Positions 14,259 to 24,362 of a DNA stretch of 32,760 nt are shown piece by piece. Both the position numbers and the translations under genes were made by a program. The stretch's first letter is position 1; each line of letters opens with the position of its first letter. The notes below the pieces were generated by a model. It saw only the letters and a list, made by a program, of their open reading frames with translations, made no database searches and had not been told where the DNA came from. Source of the DNA: an uncultured Hyphomicrobiales bacterium (lineage in GTDB: Bacteria; Pseudomonadota; Alphaproteobacteria; Rhizobiales; Beijerinckiaceae); assembly GCA_903825465.1 (NCBI GenBank), contig CAIKAR010000122.1, forward strand, positions 1 to 32,760. Reading direction: 5' to 3'.

Positions 14259-15497
14259 GTGGCGTGTTTGCTGATGGGTCGGACGCAAATCGGTTGGGCC
14301 ATGGGCGTCGTCGCGCCCTGGTGCCTGGGCATGGGGCTTGTCGTCTCGTTCACAGCGGACGCCGGCCAGGATTCCTCCATCGGCGCCAGCCAGGCGATCG
14401 CCGCGGCGCGCGCGCCCGCGGCGCCATTCACCTTCATGCCGCCGGCGTCTGGCGGTCTTGCCGCCCTGTTTCCAGTGGGCGCCCGCGTTCATTTGGCGAG
14501 CGTCCATCCGGGAGACGTTGTCACCGCCACGCCGGACGACGCGGGCGACACGCCCCGCTCCGCTCTCAAGCGCAACGCTCACGGCTGGCCAACGCCGGAC
14601 CGCAGCCACAAGGGCGATCCCTCCGTGGGATTGCGACCAACCTTCGACGCCAAATTCCGCCAACCCGGCGGCCTGGCCGCGTTGCGCGCCCGCGATCTTT
14701 TGTTGAACGCGGACGATTCTCTCGCCTTCGACGGATTTTCGCCGATGACGCCGGCCGCGGACGCCGCGGTTGAACCGGCGTCCACGGACGATGAGAGCGG
14801 CGCCGCGACCCCCGCCGCCGCCGAACCGGACGCGCAAACGGCTTCGACGCCGACATTGCGCGCGGCCAGCCGCCAATCCCCGGGTGTTTTCGACGGCGCG
14901 ACGCCCGGCGTGCCCCGCGCCGTCGCGCTGGGTTCCACAACGCCGGCGGAAGCCGATCAAACGCCTATCGAAATCGTCGCCGTCGCCGGACCCGCGATCG
15001 GCGACATCGCGGCCAAGCCCGCGCCGAACGCCACCATTGTCGAGCGCAACGGCGACAAGCCCGGCTTCGCCGACCTCGCGGAATTCGAAGGCGGCGCCGA
15101 AGAACGCTGCCTCGCGCAGGCCGTTTATTTCGAGGCGCGCAGCGAACCCGAAGCGGGTCAAGCGGCTGTCGCGCAAGTGGTGCTCAACCGCGTCAAAAGC
15201 GGCCTCTATCCGCCGACGATCTGCGGCGTGGTCTATCAAAACCGCCAGCGCCGCAACGCCTGCCAATTCTCGTTCGCCTGCGAGGGCAAGGCGTTGCGCG
15301 TGACCGAGCTCGAGGCGTGGGCGACGGCCTCCGAAATCGCTCATAAAGTGCTGGGAGGCGACACCTATCTCGCCGATGTCGGCGGCGCGACACACTACCA
15401 CGCCGACTACGTGCGGCCGCGCTGGGCGCGCGCGCTGCAAAAGATGGACACCATCGGCCACCACGTCTTCTATTCCCTGCGGCCAGGCCAGACGTAG
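14259..15497 (+). CDS. SleB-type cell wall hydrolase, membrane-anchored
   Basis: This 412-residue protein carries a C-terminal Hydrolase_2 (SleB/CwlJ-like) domain, a putative peptidoglycan hydrolase. An N-terminal hydrophobic segment at about residues 11-31 (WAMGVVAPWCLGMGLVVSF) acts as signal or anchor. The following 240 residues are Ala/Pro/Thr/Asp-rich and low in complexity, a likely periplasmic linker. The catalytic domain begins near 284 with CLAQAVYFEARSEPEAG, containing the conserved Glu (E292), followed by VAQVVLNRV, CGVVYQN and CQFSFACEG, and ends with ATHYHADYV. The domain assignment is secure; the linker function is inferred. The start is uncertain: GTG at 14259 or ATG at 14274, neither with a clear ribosome binding site. 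A 222-bp gap upstream may hold its promoter. Confidence 0.9.
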   Translation: MACLLMGRTQIGWAMGVVAPWCLGMGLVVSFTADAGQDSSIGASQAIAAARAPAAPFTFMPPASGGLAALFPVGARVHLASVHPGDVVTATPDDAGDTPRSALKRNAHGWPTPDRSHKGDPSVGLRPTFDAKFRQPGGLAALRARDLLLNADDSLAFDGFSPMTPAADAAVEPASTDDESGAATPAAAEPDAQTASTPTLRAASRQSPGVFDGATPGVPRAVALGSTTPAEADQTPIEIVAVAGPAIGDIAAKPAPNATIVERNGDKPGFADLAEFEGGAEERCLAQAVYFEARSEPEAGQAAVAQVVLNRVKSGLYPPTICGVVYQNRQRRNACQFSFACEGKALRVTELEAWATASEIAHKVLGGDTYLADVGGATHYHADYVRPRWARALQKMDTIGHHVFYSLRPGQT

Positions 15498-15552
15498 ACG
15501 CCGGCATGGCTCGCCGCTAATATCCGCGCAATCCATTCGCGGGGAAGCGGCC

Positions 15553-16416
15553 ATGAACGTCATGACTAAAAGCGGGCTCGAAGTGATTCCGCTGTCGCGC
15601 CACATCGGCGCGGAACTGCGCGGCCTCGATCTGTCCAAGCCGTTGAACGAGGCGGATGTCGCCGCGATCAACAAGGCCTGGCTCGACCACATCGTCATCC
15701 TGTTCCGCGGCCAGACGTTGACGCAGGAAGATCAAATCCGGCTGACCGAGTATTTCGGCCCCGTCGGCGCGCTTGGCCGGCCGCCGAAGTTTTTTCCGCC
15801 GGGTTTCAAAAGCCTGCTGCCGGGCGTCATGATGATCTCCAACATCCGCGAAAACGGCGAGCCCATTGGCGCGCTGCCCGACGGCGAGATGATGTTCCAC
15901 CACGACATGATCCACCACGCGCTTCCGCACGACGGCACGATGCTCTATTCGCTCGAAATCCCGGACCATGGCGGCGACACGCTCTTCGCCAGCGGCTACG
16001 CCGCCTATGAGACGCTGGACCCCGCGTTGAAGGCCCGGCTCGAAGGCCGGCGCGCCATCCACGTTTACAACTATGGCTCGACCCAGCGCGGCGACTCGCG
16101 CGGCGTCGATTCGCAGGCGCGGTCCCTCCATCCCGTGTTCCGCACGCACGACCGGACCGGCCGCAAATCGACCTATGTCAACCGGCTGATGACGGTGGGC
16201 GTCGAAGGCATGGACGACGCGGAGTCGGCGCCGATGCTTGAGGCGCTGTTCGACCACACCGAAAAGCCCGAGTTCGTTTACACGCACCAGTGGCGCGTCG
16301 GCGACGTGTTGCTGTGGGACAACCGCTGCTCGACCCACGCGCGCACCGATTTTCCCGCCGACCAGCGCCGGCTGATGCTGCGCACAACGGTGGCGGGGAA
16401 CGTGGTTCCGGTCTAA
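15553..16416 (+). CDS. TauD/TfdA-family 2-oxoglutarate dioxygenase
   Basis: This 287-residue cytoplasmic dioxygenase is of the TauD/TfdA family. Members use Fe(II), O2 and 2-oxoglutarate to open or hydroxylate small substrates, such as taurine, other sulfonates, phenoxyacetates or alkyl sulfates. The N-terminus has the family block IGAELRGLDLSKPL and VILFRGQTLT. The iron ligands are H116 and D118 (FHHDMIHH) and distal H262 (RCSTHAR), with an Arg in RRLMLRTTV to bind 2-oxoglutarate. The FHHD form and the GALPDGEMMFHHD context are characteristic of uncharacterised members rather than of taurine dioxygenase itself, so the substrate is left open. The start has GGGGAAG upstream. Its TAA overlaps the stop of the convergent TMEM175-family gene by 4 nt. 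It is the second 2-oxoglutarate enzyme in this stretch. Confidence 0.93.
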   Translation: MNVMTKSGLEVIPLSRHIGAELRGLDLSKPLNEADVAAINKAWLDHIVILFRGQTLTQEDQIRLTEYFGPVGALGRPPKFFPPGFKSLLPGVMMISNIRENGEPIGALPDGEMMFHHDMIHHALPHDGTMLYSLEIPDHGGDTLFASGYAAYETLDPALKARLEGRRAIHVYNYGSTQRGDSRGVDSQARSLHPVFRTHDRTGRKSTYVNRLMTVGVEGMDDAESAPMLEALFDHTEKPEFVYTHQWRVGDVLLWDNRCSTHARTDFPADQRRLMLRTTVAGNVVPV

Positions 16417-17114: not shown

Positions 17115-17750
17115 ATGCGCGGACCCATCGAGTTTTATTTCGATTTCATGTCGCCTTTCGGCTACCTCGGCTCGGTGGAGATCGAGCGCGTCGCCGCGCG
17201 CCACGGGCGCGAAGTCGATTGGCGGCCCATTTTGCTCGGCGTCACCGTGCTGAAGGCCATGGGTCTGCCGCCCATTCCAACGATTCCGCTGAAGGGGCCG
17301 TGGCTCGACCGCGACCGCGAGCGGCTGTCGTCGCTGCTCGACATCCCCGTTCGCAAGCACGGCCTTCGCGGCGTCAACTCGCTCGTCGCGGCGCGGGCGT
17401 TTCTCTGGATCAAGGCGCGCGACGCCGCCCTCGCCAAACGATTCGGCCAGGCTGTTTTCGCGCGTCTGTGGACGCGCGGCGAGGATATCACGCCGGTCGA
17501 GGCCGTTTTGGCGGAGGCCGCGAAACTCGGCGTCGACGCGCGCGAACTGGGCGCCGCGCTGGAGACGCCCGAACTCAAGGCGGACTTGCGAAACGCGGTC
17601 GACGCCGCCATGGCGAAGGGGGTGTTCGGCGCGCCCTTCTTCATCTGCGACGGCGAGGGGTTTTTCGGCGTCGACCACGTCTGGATGTTGGAACATTGGC
17701 TGCGACACGGGCATTTCAACCCCGCGCGCGGCGAACGCGCCGGAGGATAA
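17115..17750 (+). CDS. DsbA-fold 2-hydroxychromene-2-carboxylate isomerase family protein
   Basis: This 211-residue protein is of the DsbA/kappa-class GST family. Characterised members isomerise 2-hydroxychromene-2-carboxylate with glutathione in naphthalene breakdown, but many relatives have other or unknown substrates. The thioredoxin-fold start IEFYFDFMSPFGYLGS has Ser13 at the position where DsbA has its reactive Cys, as in the isomerases. GVFGAPFF near 173-180 provides the cis-proline loop. No other naphthalene pathway gene is nearby, so a general glutathione-linked role is more likely. The exporter gene begins directly after its TAA, and the exporter's ribosome binding site GGAGG is inside its last codons, so the two are translated together. 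The ATG at 17115 matches family length; the ribosome binding site is weak. Confidence 0.88.
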   Translation: MRGPIEFYFDFMSPFGYLGSVEIERVAARHGREVDWRPILLGVTVLKAMGLPPIPTIPLKGPWLDRDRERLSSLLDIPVRKHGLRGVNSLVAARAFLWIKARDAALAKRFGQAVFARLWTRGEDITPVEAVLAEAAKLGVDARELGAALETPELKADLRNAVDAAMAKGVFGAPFFICDGEGFFGVDHVWMLEHWLRHGHFNPARGERAGG

Positions 17751-19253
17751 GTGGCGAGCATAGAACCCAAGAACGTGACGCCCATTATGTTCGGGCTCGT
17801 GCTGTCGCTGTTCCTCGCGAACCTGGATCAGACGATCGTCGCGACCTGCCTGCCCGCCATCGCCAGGGATCTCGACGGCTGGGACCTGCTGCCGTGGATC
17901 GTCTCCTCCTACCTCGTCACCTCGACGGCGACGACGCCGATCTATGGCCGGCTGAGCGACATCTACGGCCGCCGTCCCATGCTGCTCGCCTCCATCGCCC
18001 TGTTCGTTGCGGCTTCGGCGCTCTGCGCGCTGGCGCCGACGATGCCGGCGCTGATCGCGGCGCGCGCGCTGCAAGGCGCCGGCGGCGGCGGCCTGCGCGC
18101 CATCAGCCAGATCGTCATCGCCGACATCATACCGCCGCGCTTCCGCGGCAAATACCAGGGCTGGATGTCGGGCACGTTCCTCGTGTCCACCGCGCTTGGC
18201 CCCGTGCTGGGCGGCTTTTTCGCCGAACATGTGACGTGGCAATGGGCGTTCTGGATCAACCTGCCGCTTGGCGCGATCGCGTTTTTCGTCATCGACCGCC
18301 AGTTGCGCAAGCTGACGCTGCCGACCCGCTCGGTGAAGGTCGACTGGATCGGCGCGCTTTGCATTGTCGCCTTCGCGGCGCCGCTCATGATCGGCATCAG
18401 CCAGGTGGAGCAGCAGGGCGGCTGGCTCAATCTGGTGGTCATGACCCCGCTGCTCGCCGGCCTCGTCGCGGGGGTTGTTCTCGTCTGGTGGGAGTTGCGC
18501 GCGCCCGAGCCAATGCTGCCCATGCGGCTCTTCAGCAACAACGTTTACACGCTCGGCAACGTGGCCCTCGCGGCGCCGTCGATGACGATGACGGCGATGA
18601 TCATCATCATCCCCCTCTATTACCAGGTCGTGCTGAACTGGTCCGCCGACGCCGCCGGCCCGCGCCTCATCGCGCTCACCGCCGGCATGTCGATCGGCAG
18701 TTTCATCGTCGGCTCGGCGATCACGCGCACCGGCCGGGCGCGCGTCTATCCAATCGTCGCCGGCTTCGTCGCCGTGGCCGTCTGCCTGTTGATCGCGCGC
18801 GTCGGCCTGGGAACCTCGCTCGTCTTCGATCTCCTCAGCATCCTCGCGCTCGGCGCGGCGCTGGGCTGCCAGATCAACCCGATGCTCGTCATCGTGCCAA
18901 ACGGCCTCGAAATCCGCGACATCGGCGCGGGCGTGTCGGGCATGACGTTCTTCCGCTCGCTCGCCGGCGCCTTCGGCGTCGCGGTGTTCACGACGTTCCT
19001 CGTCGACCGCCTCGCCGCCGGCGCGGCGCTGGTGCCGGGCCACGAGAAGCTCGGCGCCAACCTGGGCGTCGGCATGTTGCGGCGGGACATGGACAAGCTG
19101 TTCGACGCGTCGGCGAACGCCGCGTTCGACGTGGTGCGCCAAAGCGCGTTTTCACACGTGTTCGTCATGGCGGCGGGGCTGACGATCGCCGGCGTCGTCG
19201 CCCTCGCCGCGATGCAGGAAAAGCCGCTGCGCGCCAACAGCGGGCTGCTGTAG
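17751..19253 (+). CDS. MFS multidrug exporter, DHA2 (EmrB/QacA-like, 14 TM) family
   Basis: This 500-residue inner-membrane drug:H+ antiporter is of the 14-helix DHA2 family. The first helix has LDQTIVATCLPAIARDL (about 25-41), the family motif D1; motif A is GRLSDIYGRRP at 66-76, and GGGGLRAISQIVIADI and LGPVLGGFF correspond to motifs B and C. Further hydrophobic segments are seen throughout up to the last helix near 470-490. The start is GTG, immediately after the TAA of the previous gene, with GGAGG 6 nt upstream. Coupling with a glutathione-type isomerase suggests detoxification and efflux of an organic compound, but the substrate is not revealed. The stop is 3 nt from that of the convergent substrate-binding protein gene. 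No regulator or membrane-fusion partner is adjacent. Confidence 0.94.
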   Translation: MASIEPKNVTPIMFGLVLSLFLANLDQTIVATCLPAIARDLDGWDLLPWIVSSYLVTSTATTPIYGRLSDIYGRRPMLLASIALFVAASALCALAPTMPALIAARALQGAGGGGLRAISQIVIADIIPPRFRGKYQGWMSGTFLVSTALGPVLGGFFAEHVTWQWAFWINLPLGAIAFFVIDRQLRKLTLPTRSVKVDWIGALCIVAFAAPLMIGISQVEQQGGWLNLVVMTPLLAGLVAGVVLVWWELRAPEPMLPMRLFSNNVYTLGNVALAAPSMTMTAMIIIIPLYYQVVLNWSADAAGPRLIALTAGMSIGSFIVGSAITRTGRARVYPIVAGFVAVAVCLLIARVGLGTSLVFDLLSILALGAALGCQINPMLVIVPNGLEIRDIGAGVSGMTFFRSLAGAFGVAVFTTFLVDRLAAGAALVPGHEKLGANLGVGMLRRDMDKLFDASANAAFDVVRQSAFSHVFVMAAGLTIAGVVALAAMQEKPLRANSGLL

Positions 19254-19256
19254 GCC

Positions 19257-20189
19257 TCAGCCCAGTTCCGCCACCGCCTCGTTGTAATAGGAGAGGTCGA
19301 TGTATTTGTGGGGATCGTTCAGCGCCGCGCCCGGCTTGCCGTAGCGCGTGCGCAAATCGAGCACCGCGCGGACGCCGGGAATGGTCACCGCGCCCTTCGG
19401 CGTCAGGCCGGACGCCGGCGACAACAGGCTCGCCATCACCGAACCGACGACGCCGGGCTTGATGTCCGGCATCTCGCGCAGCAGGATTTTCGCGCCCTCT
19501 TCGCGGTTGGCGGGATCGAGCGTCCACGCGAGCCCGTCGAGATAGGCCTTGACGAAGCCCTTCAACGCCTCCTTGTTTTCCGCCGCCCAGGAGCGCCGCG
19601 ACGCGAAGACGCCGCCCTGGTAGTCGGCGAGCGTTTCGGTGCTGCGCGCCAGAATATTGAAGCCCTGCGCCTTGCCGATCGAGGTGAAGGGCTCGATGGT
19701 CATGGTCGCCGCGTGCTTGCCGTCGCGCACCGATTCCCAGCGCGTCGGCGTCGCGCCGACGGCCGCGCGCTCGTATTGGCCGGGCTTGACGCCGCCCTTT
19801 TCCAGCATGTTGTAAAACACAAAGGCGAAGCCGGTGCCCGGCGCGTCGAGCGCCAGGTTCTGGCCCGCGAGGTCGGCGATGGATTTGAATTCCGGCCGCG
19901 CGACGATGGCGAGCTCGATTTGCGTCGCGCCGAGGAACGCGAAGAAATCCGGCGGCGTGTCGAAAGCGACGGCGCCCTGCCCCTCGGTGTAGGCGACGAC
20001 ATTGTCGAAGGCGGTGCCCGCGACGTCGAACTCGCCCTTCGCCAGCGCTTCGGCCTGATAGGCGGAGTTCGGCGTCAGCTTCATGTCGAGCGTCACGCCA
20101 TGCTTGGCGAACCAGCCCTTTTCGCGCGCGACGAAAATCGGCAGGTTCGGCGCGCCCGGGAAGGCGATGAGTTTGACCGTGTGCGTCAC
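19257..20189 (-). CDS. NMT1/THI5-like substrate-binding protein without signal peptide
   Basis: This 310-residue protein has the type II periplasmic-binding fold of the NMT1/THI5/SsuA group. It starts straight at the first strand, VKLIAFPGAPNLPIFVAREK, and continues with FAKHGVTLDMKLTP, EFDVAGTAFDNVVAY and LAGQNLALDAPGTG, a binding-cleft pattern. No signal peptide precedes it, and the sequence upstream is the end of the previous gene, so it is probably cytoplasmic. No ABC permease or ATPase is adjacent. Its GTG start overlaps the stop of the molybdopterin subunit gene as GTGA; it is the last gene of a tightly coupled three-gene operon. It may be an intracellular ligand-binding or enzymatic relative (as yeast Thi5 is) rather than a transporter part. 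That reading is inference. Confidence 0.87.
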   Translation of the reverse strand: MTHTVKLIAFPGAPNLPIFVAREKGWFAKHGVTLDMKLTPNSAYQAEALAKGEFDVAGTAFDNVVAYTEGQGAVAFDTPPDFFAFLGATQIELAIVARPEFKSIADLAGQNLALDAPGTGFAFVFYNMLEKGGVKPGQYERAAVGATPTRWESVRDGKHAATMTIEPFTSIGKAQGFNILARSTETLADYQGGVFASRRSWAAENKEALKGFVKAYLDGLAWTLDPANREEGAKILLREMPDIKPGVVGSVMASLLSPASGLTPKGAVTIPGVRAVLDLRTRYGKPGAALNDPHKYIDLSYYNEAVAELG

Positions 20190-22558
20190 TTGGCGGCTCC
20201 CCTCGTCCGCGCGTCGCGGATGGTTTGGAATATTTTGAACGGCGTCACCGGCATGTCGATATGCGAGACGCCATAGGGCTTGAGCGCGTCGACGACGGAC
20301 GACACGAGCGTCGACAGCGCTGGAGTCGTGCCGCCCTCGCCGCCGGCCTTCACGCCCAGTGGGTTCGTCGGCGACAACACTTCGGCGATCTCGGCGCGGA
20401 ACGACGGCATGTCGCCGGCCCGCGGCATGCCGTAGTCCATGAACGAGCCGGCGAGCGGCTGGCCGCTCGATTGGTCGAGGTGGCAAAGCTCGAAAATCGC
20501 CTGTCCGAGGCCCTGAACAATGCCGCCGTGCGTTTGCCCGTGCACGATCATGGGATTGATGCAGCGGCCGACGTCGTCGATGGTGGTGTAGCGGACGACG
20601 CGCATCTCGCACGTCTCCTCGTCGATCTCGACCTCGCAGATCGCCGTGCCGTTGGGAAACACCGGATCGTGCATCTCGTTGTCGCGCGCCACGGCGAGGC
20701 CCGTCTTCAATTCGCCTTCGAGCTTCATGCCCGGAATTTTCCCCGCGAGATCGAGGAAATCGATCGCGAGATTGGTGTTGGCGACGACGAAGCGCTCGTT
20801 GTCGAATTCCACGCGGTCTTCGGACACGCCGAAATACAGGGCGGCTATTTTCTTGCCGCGCGCGATCATGTCCTCGCAGGCGAGCGCGATCACCGTGCCG
20901 GCGTGGCGCATGGAGCGGCCCGAATGCGAGCCGCCGCCGACGCTGACGATGTCGGTGTCGCCGATGATGATCCGCACTTTTTCGACCGGCGCGCCGAGCA
21001 GGTCCGCGGCGACCTGCGCGAAGGAGGTTTCGTGGCCCTGCCCGCTGGGCTGCGTGCCGATGACAACCTCGATCGCGCCCTCGGGCTTGATCTTGATTTC
21101 GGCGCGTTCCTTCGGCGTGCCGATGGACGACTCGACGTAGTTCGCGAGGCCGACGCCGTAGAGCTTGCCGCGCTTTTCCGCGTCGGCGCGGCGGGCCGCG
21201 ACGCCCTCCCATTCGGCGAGCCGCATCGACCAGTCGAGATTGTGCTCGTAGGTTCCGCTGTCGTAGACGGCGCCGACGCCGTTCCTGTAGGGCATCGCGT
21301 CGGGGGACACGAGGTTCATGCGCCTCAGCGCGACGCGGTCGAACCCCAGCTTTTCCGCCGCCATGTCGACAAGCCGCTCAAGGGCGAAATTCACCTCCGG
21401 GCGGCCCGAGCTGCGATAGGCCTGCGTCGGCGTGGTGTTGGTGTAGACGGCCCAGGCGCGCAGCGTCGCCGCGGGAATGGCGTAGGAGCCGGTGATCAGG
21501 CCCGAGCCCTTGCCGAGCGGCGAAAACGACACCGCGCGCGCCCCCATGTTCGACAGGTTTTCGGCGCGCATGGCGAGAAAGCGCCCGTCCTTCCGGATCG
21601 CCAACGACACCTTGCTGACGAGGTCTCGGCCCTGGTAGTCGCTGAGGAAGCACTCGCTCCGCGTCGCGGTGAACTTCACCGGGCGGCCGACCTTCTTCGA
21701 CGCCCAGGCGACGAGCGGAAACTCGACATAGGTGCGGTTGCGCGTGCCGAAATTGCCGCCCACGTCGAACGACAGCACGCGCAGGTTCTTCGGATCGATT
21801 CCCAGAACGCCCGATATCTCCGCCTTCTGCCGCACGGCGCCGCCGCTGCCGGCGTAAAGCGTCGTGCGGCCGGTCGCCGCGTCGTAATTCGCCAGCGCCG
21901 AGCGCGGCTCCAGCGGCACGCCGGTGACGCGGTCGATGTGGAATTCGTATTCCACGACATGGTCGGCCGCGGCGAAGCCCGCGTCCGTCGCCGCCCGGTC
22001 GCCGAAGAACGTTTCGACGCAGATGTTGTCGGGCAGCTCGTCCCACACCGCGGGCGCGCCGGGCGTCGCCGCCGCGCGCGAATCAAGCACGAAGGGCAAC
22101 ACCTCGTAGTCAACGACGACCGCTTCGGCGGCGTCGAGCGCCTGCGCGAGCGTTTCCGCCACGACCATCGCGACCGCTTCGCCGACATGCCGCGCCTTGT
22201 CGGCGGGCAGCGGCATGTGGGGGCCGATGAACACCGGGCCCTTGTTGCCCGGCGCGTGCAGCTTCATGTCGAATTTCGTTTTCGGCAGGGGGTCGTGCGG
22301 AATGGGCTTCAATCCGTCCGCCAACAGGTCGCGCCCGTCGAACACCGCGAGCACGCCGGGCATCGCGAGCGCGGCGGACTTGTCCACGCCCTTGATGCGC
22401 GCGTGCGGATGCGGCGAACGAACCATCGCCGCGCATGTCTGGCCGGGAACCGAGAAATCGTCGGTGAACTGGCCTTTGCCCGTCACCAGCCGCGCGTCCT
22501 CCTTGCGGCGCACGGGCTTGCCGATGGCTTTCAGCAGAACGGATTCGATCGGCCTCAT
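20186..22558 (-). CDS. Xanthine dehydrogenase/CO dehydrogenase-family molybdopterin-binding large subunit (lone)
   Basis: This 790-residue protein is the catalytic molybdenum subunit of the xanthine oxidase superfamily. Such enzymes hydroxylate or oxidise heterocycles, aldehydes, aromatics or CO at a Mo-MCD site. The N-terminal Ald_Xan_dh_C domain starts at GKPVRRKEDARLVTGKGQF. The molybdopterin regions show GGNFGTRN at 268-275, AYRSSGRPE at 380-388, GQGHETSFAQ at 506-515, and AGGEGGTTPAL with catalytic Glu741. The active-site loop differs from form I CoxL (AYxCSFR), so it is not a true CO dehydrogenase; it is nearest to form II AYRGAGR, with SS replacing GA, and GGNFG replaces the usual GGGFG. 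No FeS or FAD subunit gene adjoins. The ATG overlaps the UbiD gene stop as ATGA. The substrate is unknown. Confidence 0.93.
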   Translation of the reverse strand: MRPIESVLLKAIGKPVRRKEDARLVTGKGQFTDDFSVPGQTCAAMVRSPHPHARIKGVDKSAALAMPGVLAVFDGRDLLADGLKPIPHDPLPKTKFDMKLHAPGNKGPVFIGPHMPLPADKARHVGEAVAMVVAETLAQALDAAEAVVVDYEVLPFVLDSRAAATPGAPAVWDELPDNICVETFFGDRAATDAGFAAADHVVEYEFHIDRVTGVPLEPRSALANYDAATGRTTLYAGSGGAVRQKAEISGVLGIDPKNLRVLSFDVGGNFGTRNRTYVEFPLVAWASKKVGRPVKFTATRSECFLSDYQGRDLVSKVSLAIRKDGRFLAMRAENLSNMGARAVSFSPLGKGSGLITGSYAIPAATLRAWAVYTNTTPTQAYRSSGRPEVNFALERLVDMAAEKLGFDRVALRRMNLVSPDAMPYRNGVGAVYDSGTYEHNLDWSMRLAEWEGVAARRADAEKRGKLYGVGLANYVESSIGTPKERAEIKIKPEGAIEVVIGTQPSGQGHETSFAQVAADLLGAPVEKVRIIIGDTDIVSVGGGSHSGRSMRHAGTVIALACEDMIARGKKIAALYFGVSEDRVEFDNERFVVANTNLAIDFLDLAGKIPGMKLEGELKTGLAVARDNEMHDPVFPNGTAICEVEIDEETCEMRVVRYTTIDDVGRCINPMIVHGQTHGGIVQGLGQAIFELCHLDQSSGQPLAGSFMDYGMPRAGDMPSFRAEIAEVLSPTNPLGVKAGGEGGTTPALSTLVSSVVDALKPYGVSHIDMPVTPFKIFQTIRDARTRGAAK

Positions 22559-24183
22559 TTCACGGGTCCAACCTTGCGCGTCGGCGTTTCGGGAATCAGA
22601 TCGGGCATGCGGCGCCCCCAGGTGTTGGCGCCGTTCTCAAGCCATTTCCCGGCCACCGCGTTGTCGGCGAAGCGCTGCCACAGCTCGCCCCAGTCGCCGA
22701 GTTCGTATCCGTGCCAGGGCGCCTGCGGCGTGATGTGGGGAAGGCCGAGCTCTTCCCAGATTCGCATCGCGCGCTCCATGTAGGGCTTCGTCGGCAGCGC
22801 CAGCGGCGGCATCTTCGTCTTCGACGTCGCGTCGATCAGCAGCGTCGAGTTCGCCGCGCCTTTCGGGCCGTGGCCGCCGGCGCGGTTGGGCGCCACAAGC
22901 ACGTCCTCGACCGGGTTCGAGCGATAGGCCATCGACCAGAACACCGCGTCGGTGTTGTTGGGATCGACATCGTCCGAGACCGCGACGCAAATTTTGCCGC
23001 ATTGCGCCTGCAGCGACGACGCGCCCTGCAGGCCGCGCCACACCTCGGTTTGCGGCGCGCCCTGCTTGAACACCAGGAAGATCACGGGCCGCAAGTTCGA
23101 CAAGGGCTCGTGCATGACGACGCGCTGGATTCCCTTGACGTTGAGGTCCTTGCGCAGATGGTTGAGAAACAGCGGCTCGTAGGCCACTTTCTTCATCACG
23201 CTGGACTCGCTCGGCGTGACCTGGCTGACAATCGACACGAACACCGCGTCGCGCCGGCGCGTGATGGCGGTGACGCGCATCGACATATTGAAGCCCTCTA
23301 GCGCGACATGGCCGTGGCTTTCGCCGAACGGCCCCTCGGGCTCGAGCATGTCGGTGTCGATCAATCCCTCGATCACGATTTCGGCGTCGGCGGGAATTTC
23401 AAGATCAACCGTCAACGCCTTGCAAACGCGCATCGGCTCGCCGGCGAGCCCGCCCGCCACCGCCATCTCGTCCTCGTCGATGCGCAACTTTTGCGGGCCG
23501 GTGAACATCACCGCCGGCGTGCAGCCGACAACGATGGCGCAGGGCATCTTTTCGCCGCGCGCCTTGTATTTCAGCCAGTGCTGATAGCCGCCGGCGCCCG
23601 ACAACCGGCTCGCCATGCGCACGCCGAGGCGGTCGTGGTCCTTCAATCCCGCGCGGTAGGTGCCCATGTTGCGCACGCCCGTTTCGGGATCGACCGTCAC
23701 GCACAAGGTCGCGGTGAGATAGGGCGCGGCGTCGAAGCCCGGCGTCGACACGGGCACGGGCAGCGAGGCGAGCCCATGCTCCGCCGTCTTCAGCGCGTCG
23801 CCGACGACGACGATTTCCTGGCACGGCGGATTGTCGATTTTCACCGGCGCGATGGGATGGTCGATGCCGCGCGTCCACACATCGCCGATCTGTTCGACCG
23901 GCACGCCCATGCCGATCGAATAAATCTCCGGCGAGGCGGCGAGCGCGCCGACGACGACGGGCATGTCGAACTTGCGTCCATCGACGCCATGAACATTCGT
24001 GAACATGAAGGCGCGCCGCGCGCTGTCGGGCAAGCCGCCGGTGAACTGCCAGCGCATCAGCGGATGCAGCTCGGTGTCCTTGCAAATCGGCCGGTCGATG
24101 CGCGTCAGCAGCCCGCGCTCCTCGAGCGCGCGCATTTGCGCGTGGAAGTCGGCGGGCGCCTTTTGCGCCGCTGGGACGGTCAT
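22555..24183 (-). CDS. UbiD-family decarboxylase (prenylated-FMN dependent)
   Basis: This 542-residue cytoplasmic enzyme is of the UbiD family, which reversibly decarboxylates aromatic or alpha,beta-unsaturated carboxylates using prenylated FMN supplied by UbiX. The catalytic triad aligns well: R177 in RNMGTYRAGLKD, and E283 and E288 in EPEGPFGE, the same 5-residue spacing as the Glu pair of known (de)carboxylases. The metal and cofactor region around MRVTAITRRRDAVF follows. It is probably not ubiquinone biosynthetic UbiD, because of its operon and divergent sequence. I chose the ATG before TVPAAQ, preceded by GAAGG; an in-frame TTG at 24261 would add a Lys/Pro-rich 26 residues. It is the first gene of the coupled operon with the molybdopterin subunit and the substrate-binding protein. 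No ubiX is nearby. Confidence 0.93.
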   Translation of the reverse strand: MTVPAAQKAPADFHAQMRALEERGLLTRIDRPICKDTELHPLMRWQFTGGLPDSARRAFMFTNVHGVDGRKFDMPVVVGALAASPEIYSIGMGVPVEQIGDVWTRGIDHPIAPVKIDNPPCQEIVVVGDALKTAEHGLASLPVPVSTPGFDAAPYLTATLCVTVDPETGVRNMGTYRAGLKDHDRLGVRMASRLSGAGGYQHWLKYKARGEKMPCAIVVGCTPAVMFTGPQKLRIDEDEMAVAGGLAGEPMRVCKALTVDLEIPADAEIVIEGLIDTDMLEPEGPFGESHGHVALEGFNMSMRVTAITRRRDAVFVSIVSQVTPSESSVMKKVAYEPLFLNHLRKDLNVKGIQRVVMHEPLSNLRPVIFLVFKQGAPQTEVWRGLQGASSLQAQCGKICVAVSDDVDPNNTDAVFWSMAYRSNPVEDVLVAPNRAGGHGPKGAANSTLLIDATSKTKMPPLALPTKPYMERAMRIWEELGLPHITPQAPWHGYELGDWGELWQRFADNAVAGKWLENGANTWGRRMPDLIPETPTRKVGPVK

Positions 24184-24362
24184 GAGTTCGGCCTTCGGTT
24201 TTGCGGGCGGCGTCGCCTTCCCGCGCGACGGCTGCTTAGTCCGCTTCGGGTGGTTTCGCAACTTTCGCGGCGGGCTCGCCGGCGGCGCCGGACGCGCCCG
24301 TTTTTCCTGTTGCCCTTCGCCGCAACCATGCGATGCTGGGCCAATTCAACCGGGAGGCCGCC

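Follow-up and report, generated by a model that had tools for sequence, protein, structure and literature searches.

RESULTS AND DISCUSSION

Three adjacent genes on contig CAIKAR010000122.1 (C122) of an uncultured Hyphomicrobiales bacterium probably belong to one pathway that breaks down aromatic acids, because the same three genes remain neighbours in many different proteobacteria. They lie within a 32,760-nt stretch (hereafter the window), which comes from a 3.9 Mb draft genome that is 98.6% complete. The genes code for a UbiD-family decarboxylase dependent on prenylated flavin mononucleotide (prFMN), for the large, molybdenum-cofactor-binding (Mo) subunit of a hydroxylase of the xanthine oxidase family, and for a cytosolic protein with the predicted fold of periplasmic binding proteins (BP). 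On balance, we favour a conserved catabolic module for a (hetero)aromatic carboxylate, of which this trio would be the compact local portion. Modules that pair UbiD with a Mo hydroxylase are known, and the unusual, conserved component here is the cytosolic partner with the binding-protein fold, which we did not find described in the literature searched. A preliminary description of this DNA knew of no pathway with exactly this trio, and we too found no paper on it in that literature. The name UbiD does not occur in the text of two papers on Mo genes of Rhizobium and Sinorhizobium (PMC12904279 and PMC6692525).

Conservation of the linkage

Relatives of the Mo subunit were collected from genome contigs using a profile built from a 24-row alignment (A1), and the best 80 of 584 confirmed matches were chosen by similarity. 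With the addition of 28 same-genus loci (Mo identity at least 62%, L052 included), three plasmid loci and the window itself, the set comprised 112 loci. Removal of fragments shorter than 640 aa and of identical copies left 98 distinct Mo sequences, 64 of which have at least 3 kb of flank on both sides. A UbiD gene was counted as a partner at 50% identity or more within 9 kb of the Mo gene, and a BP gene at 48% or more within 4 kb. Genes were called with our own simple codon-usage script, and the class names of beta- and gammaproteobacteria are those given in record titles.

Both partners accompany 31 of the 64 flanked Mo relatives, UbiD only nine and BP only four. Once the window and the same-genus loci are set aside (n = 51), the corresponding numbers are 21, 7 and 3, with neither partner in 20. 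Rhizobiaceae, Rhodobacteraceae, Thalassospira, SAR116 and betaproteobacterial records all include loci with both partners; among the gammaproteobacterial records two (L133 and L137) show a partner, in each case UbiD without BP. Within the genus, at least one partner stands beside 27 of the 28 fetched Mo relatives. If short flanks are allowed, the number of loci with both partners rises to 42, a count inflated by those flanks, for which 31 of 64 is the stricter figure. The linkage labels cluster on the Mo tree (15 changes versus a shuffled mean of 29.5), and this tree, a quick one computed with no mixture model, points to several gains or losses of the linkage.

Two samples drawn by taxonomy complement this picture. 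Besides the source genome, such a Mo gene is present in six of 385 genomes of the class (three of the six from one genus), and BP adjoins it in five of these, in one case at just 40% identity. The BP gene, sought in 397 genomes of the order, was found in four besides the source genome. The Mo gene adjoins it in three of the four, and UbiD lies on the fetched stretch in three of the four, including a 6.6 kb contig with no Mo gene. Judging from these counts, the system is accessory and patchy, and the BP–Mo pair seems at least as tight as UbiD–Mo.

It might be argued that the linkage is a by-product of the many UbiD and Mo genes present in catabolic islands and reflects no common pathway. The source genome is indeed rich in such genes, with 15 UbiD, 34 BP-like and 14 near-full-length Mo large-subunit matches (two of the last with an internal stop), and the flanks vary between loci. 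However, orthologous linkage of both partners survives several rearrangements in Alpha- and Betaproteobacteria, and random placement seldom yields the UbiD–Mo pairs observed in the source genome. At a distance of up to 3 kb, a Mo gene accompanies three of the other 14 UbiD genes, against a mean of 0.46 under random placement (P about 0.01); at 1.5 kb there are two of 14 (P 0.04), and at 5 kb P is 0.02. The gene sets concerned, each listed in its gene order for the first two, are CoxM, CoxS, Mo and UbiD on contig C82, Mo, CoxM, CoxS and UbiD on C139, and Mo and UbiD on C30. The recurrence of the linkage across genomes, together with these three additional pairs, is more than chance, and we regard the by-product explanation as very improbable. 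The earlier proposal that the three genes form a common system is supported by their conserved linkage. UbiD genes are expanded in the genus, with 1–15 in each of 37 genomes searched (the source genome, with 15, included); among 24 order-mates, 19 have none and five have one.

Gene structure and order

The open reading frames, their location on the minus strand and the two 4-nt overlaps were confirmed on the sequence as first described (Table 1). For UbiD there is an alternative TTG start at 24261; the ATG at 24183 is adopted here. The ends of tblastn matches indicate the UbiD/Mo overlap also in loci L073 and L094, and the Mo/BP overlap in L094 and L087.

Table 1. Genes of the trio and their junctions (window positions)
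Feature	Positions	Strand	Basis
UbiD-family prFMN decarboxylase, 542 aa	22555..24183	-	Pfam domains, residue alignment
Mo hydroxylase large (Mo-cofactor) subunit, xanthine oxidase family, 790 aa	20186..22558	-	Pfam, active-site loop
BP, cytosolic periplasmic-binding-protein-fold protein, NMT1/SsuA class, 310 aa, GTG start	19257..20189	-	
ATGA 4-nt overlap, UbiD stop/Mo start	22555..22558	-	Sequence
GTGA 4-nt overlap, Mo stop/BP start	20186..20189	-	Sequence

All domain assignments are above the Pfam gathering scores. The UbiD protein has the N-terminal, Rift and C-terminal domains (PF20695; PF01977, E-value 4.9e-50; PF20696), the Mo subunit has PF01315 (Ald_Xan_dh_C), PF02738 (MoCoBD_1) and PF20256 (MoCoBD_2), and BP has NMT1_2 and NMT1. 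None of the three proteins reaches an NCBIfam cut-off, so the curated families give no substrate names.

The preliminary description took the overlaps to imply a fixed stoichiometry and proposed that the three-gene order be sought in other genomes. The linkage proved to be conserved, with the co-directional order of the window in nine of the 42 both-partner loci. A UbiD gene divergent from Mo–BP is the most frequent layout (25 loci), and therefore a fixed stoichiometry is not supported; translational coupling was rejected as a general route to it. In the remaining eight loci UbiD is more than 600 nt away. BP, on the other hand, is never more than 600 nt from Mo in these 42 loci, downstream in 38 and upstream in four.

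Fuller clusters and neighbouring genes

Fuller clusters, found in Sinorhizobium, Neorhizobium, Shinella and Thalassospira, comprise the trio together with UbiX, GntR, CoxG, CoxS and CoxM. In the annotated record of Neorhizobium petrolearium, one arm carries a TIGR02444 protein, UbiX, GntR, a second Mo subunit and UbiD, while the divergent arm carries Mo, BP, CoxG, CoxS and CoxM, with modABC further on. In Shinella fusca (L118), Rhizobium mayense (L081) and Candidatus Phyllobacterium onerii (L090), UbiX–GntR–UbiD is divergent from Mo–BP–CoxG–CoxS–CoxM; an SsuABC-type transporter, an isochorismatase-type hydrolase and an alpha/beta hydrolase are also present, and the first two have XdhC close to the trio as well. 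The core in Thalassospira mesophila (L095) is as in the Shinella fusca cluster. Overall, the neighbours in the 42 both-partner loci include CoxS (23 loci), CoxM (17), CoxG (9), UbiX (13), GntR (15), the alpha/beta hydrolase (17) and the isochorismatase-type hydrolase (4), and CoxS and CoxM occur together in 17. Neighbours at same-genus loci include a Rieske oxygenase of the LigXa type and a flavin monooxygenase.

The flanking genes suggested earlier as informative were UbiX, CoxS/CoxM-like and ring-cleavage genes. UbiX and CoxS/CoxM are near the trio in the fuller loci, but no ring-cleavage enzyme, whether extradiol or NicX-type, is among the Pfam-scanned neighbours, which are only part of all neighbours. 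The isochorismatase-like and alpha/beta-hydrolase genes of Rhizobiaceae suggested a nicotinate- or pyrimidine-type pathway. Such a pathway may apply, but the PDB matches do not point to one particular substrate: the top match of the alpha/beta-hydrolase representative is 3-oxoadipate enol-lactonase, and those of the isochorismatase-type hydrolase are N-carbamoylsarcosine amidohydrolase and 3ot4/3uao.

Three further observations concern the components of these clusters. A TIGR02444/DUF2390 gene directly precedes UbiX on contig C33 of the source genome (L204) and lies beside UbiX in L118, L090 and L153; its product is possibly an accessory of UbiX or prFMN. A second Mo large subunit, 37–41% identical to that of the window, is present in the CoxS–CoxM cluster of L153, L155, L132, L116, L114 and L103, which suggests that electron-transfer subunits are shared between the Mo subunits of such clusters. 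Mo relatives at L077, L079, L092, L096 and L099, 64–68% identical to the window protein, belong to another, repeatedly conserved gene set that has neither UbiD nor BP.

The Mo subunit and its electron-transfer partners

The active-site loop of the Mo subunit is QAYRSSGRPE. This loop and E741, the presumed catalytic glutamate of the family, are invariant in the 24-row alignment. Of 55 linked rows, 51 have the complete loop, versus three of 20 unlinked ones, with the core AYRSSGR in eight further unlinked rows; because the loop is found mostly in linked rows, the linked Mo proteins look like a functional subgroup. The subunit is often labelled CO dehydrogenase by source records. It resembles aerobic CO dehydrogenase (CoxMSL, CoxG) in that the best-scoring solved chain is CoxL 8uem and in that CoxG, CoxS and CoxM are present in full clusters. 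However, according to the available part of PMC13240472, the form I loop is (A/S)YRCS(F/L)R and that of form II is AYRGAGR. The loop of the trio protein fits neither motif, and CO dehydrogenase was rejected on this ground. In the same part of that paper CoxG is proposed to pass CO dehydrogenase electrons to quinones, and by analogy the presence of CoxG near the trio suggests a quinone-linked hydroxylase.

Whole-genome searches found no match to the [2Fe-2S] (PF01799) or FAD (PF00941) subunit on C122, whereas elsewhere the source genome has 16 [2Fe-2S] and seven FAD-subunit matches. The Mo subunit, previously called lone, is so locally but probably not in function, given the loci in which CoxS and CoxM are near the trio and the copies of both that the source genome encodes elsewhere. 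If it works like its family, CoxS and CoxM have to be supplied in trans. One candidate is an adjacent CoxS–CoxM pair on contig C91, which has no Mo match on its contig. The C91 CoxM is 60% identical to the trio-adjacent CoxM of the same-genus loci L162 and L180, 60% identical also to the CoxM on C108 of the same genome, and 50–57% identical to CoxM of several other trio loci. The pair was considered as the definite partner of the trio and dropped as such, since closer relatives are found at other loci; it remains a candidate. The orphan pair is followed by a gene (L197:10441-10767) whose product, judged by eye, looks like a HicB antitoxin.

UbiD and UbiX

In the UbiD protein, R177, E283 and E288 align with HmfF (6h6x) and, as R/E/D, with E. 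coli UbiD. By analogy with Fdc1, they are taken to be the catalytic Arg/Glu/Glu. The highest-ranking PDB chain for the window UbiD is 6h6x, although the match is distant (133 bits, residues 72–459). The source genome has two PF02441 genes; this domain is not specific to UbiX by itself, and the C33 protein is 60% identical to one UbiX of the compared set.

Proposed pathway and points against it

As is established for the two families, a Mo hydroxylase takes oxygen from water and introduces it beside a ring heteroatom or at an aldehyde, and a UbiD enzyme carries out prFMN-dependent removal of carboxylates from aromatic or heteroaromatic rings. In the scheme that we propose, the Mo subunit would associate with [2Fe-2S] and FAD subunits from another locus, possibly the C91 pair, and would insert water-derived oxygen at a ring carbon. 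UbiD, with prFMN from an unlinked UbiX (probably the C33 copy), would remove the ring carboxylate either before or after hydroxylation. BP, as a cytosolic partner of the Mo enzyme, may serve as an escort or regulatory subunit by binding the substrate or an intermediate, or may itself act on this compound as an enzyme.

Several observations weigh against this scheme. Neither UbiD nor BP is found beside 20 of the 64 flanked Mo relatives, and some of the partnerless proteins share as much as 64–68% identity with the window Mo subunit. In the class sample, UbiD is within about 9 kb of Mo in two of the six relatives and thus may not be obligatory. Flanking genes differ between loci, and the CoxS, CoxM, UbiX and alpha/beta-hydrolase neighbours are all absent from the window. 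In addition, the closest relatives of the C91 CoxM within the genus (66–81% identity) sit at other loci. At the 23 same-genus loci of such relatives outside the source genome, the gene beside CoxM is another Mo gene in 14 (36–40% identical to the trio Mo), CoxS in eight, and neither within the short flank in one. The C91 pair may therefore belong to another Mo enzyme.

Location and possible role of BP

Relatives of BP begin with the first strand of the fold, which carries the motif FPGAPNLP. Among 59 loci, a number that includes the window and some duplicate contigs, 33 have an in-frame stop no more than 25 codons ahead of the region of homology. The BP frame of the window stays open far upstream, into the Mo gene, so the absence of a signal peptide there rests on the relatives. 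Based on their start positions and upstream stops, we consider BP to be a cytosolic protein lacking a signal peptide, in line with the preliminary description. The possibility that BP is the binding protein of an ABC importer was rejected. The relatives have no export signal, and the window gene is flanked by the Mo gene and an MFS gene, with no adjacent permease or ATPase gene. SsuA is near five of the 42 both-partner loci, and the SsuABC sets there have their own binding protein.

One possible role of BP is to assist the Mo hydroxylase, either as a subunit that binds a ligand, as an escort or as an allosteric sensor; it would then be an ABC binding protein retargeted to substrate delivery or sensing. 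We regard this role as a serious possibility that falls somewhat short of likely. It is consistent with the close association of BP and Mo both in the taxonomy-drawn samples and in all both-partner loci, with the place of BP in full clusters, where it has Mo on one side and CoxG or CoxS–CoxM on the other, and with the existence of cytosolic regulatory domains having this fold (CmpC, NrtC). However, UbiD and Mo occur without BP in nine of 64 loci, so BP is not indispensable, and we know of no Mo hydroxylase with such a subunit.

Alternatively, BP might itself be an enzyme, adding a third reaction to those that UbiD and the Mo hydroxylase would carry out on the ring acid. Thi5, MqnD, DszB and 4,5-dihydroxyphthalate decarboxylase share its fold and are likewise cytosolic, and two of them act on aromatic acids or sulfinates. 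PDB titles name His66 of Thi5 and Cys27 of DszB, presumably as conserved nucleophiles. No Cys or His is invariant in 47 BP rows (His159 is present in at least 90%), and identity to the enzymes of this fold is 14% or less. We consider the enzymatic role rather unlikely.

A more far-reaching interpretation, which we put forward tentatively, is that of a new Mo hydroxylase system. Here the retargeted cytosolic BP would be a dedicated partner (escort, allosteric subunit or third enzyme), coupled to a prFMN-dependent UbiD, and in some genomes several Mo large subunits would share the electron-transfer subunits.

Comparison with known systems

The preliminary description considered hydroxylation and decarboxylation of one ring a natural pairing. 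This logic remains plausible, but the pairing itself is not new and is known for furans, as described for the hmf pathway in the available part of PMC12064950. According to this part, the hmf cluster of Pseudomonas umsongensis GO16 contains UbiD, a UbiX-type partner, three furoyl-CoA oxidase (Mo) genes, a Mo-cofactor insertion protein and a hydrolase, and decarboxylation precedes the Mo step. With a UbiD decarboxylase and a Mo hydroxylase in one catabolic cluster, the trio loci have the same kinds of parts. They could thus be a version of this pathway, with UbiD as furandicarboxylate decarboxylase and Mo as furoyl-CoA dehydrogenase, and 6h6x is indeed the top match of the window UbiD. However, hmf uses CoA thioesters (HmfD, HmfE), and the examined part of the hmf table in PMC12064950 has no gene resembling BP. 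Moreover, a motif search using the simple gene calls detected the AMP-binding motif of acyl-CoA synthetases in none of 56 UbiD-linked loci, and the window UbiD is only distantly similar to its hmf counterpart. We find the furan interpretation improbable.

A UbiD-family enzyme and a Mo enzyme of the xanthine oxidase family also act on one ring in the anaerobic phenol pathway, which includes the UbiD-type phenylphosphate carboxylase and 4-hydroxybenzoyl-CoA reductase. That pathway differs in running in the carboxylation direction and in reducing a CoA ester. The window proteins miss the corresponding equivalog cut-offs, with 370 of 994.55 bits for the reductase and 101 of 564.6 and 93 of 468.95 bits for the carboxylase subunits.

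The linkage defines a catabolic gene set of diverse proteobacteria, located also on megaplasmids of Sinorhizobium and Neorhizobium. It includes a Mo subunit commonly named CO dehydrogenase in sources and yet lacking the form I loop, it provides a testable case of a binding-protein fold put to use inside the cell with a Mo hydroxylase, and it may lead to new chemistry of prFMN decarboxylases. Direct tests are possible in strains that have the full cluster (Shinella fusca, Thalassospira mesophila and Neorhizobium petrolearium).

Genes convergent to the trio

At window positions 17115-19253 and 15376-16416, convergent with the trio, lie genes for a DsbA-fold protein resembling HCCA isomerase, an MFS protein and a TauD-like protein. 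This set is kept in the closest relative (L073:13312-17031).

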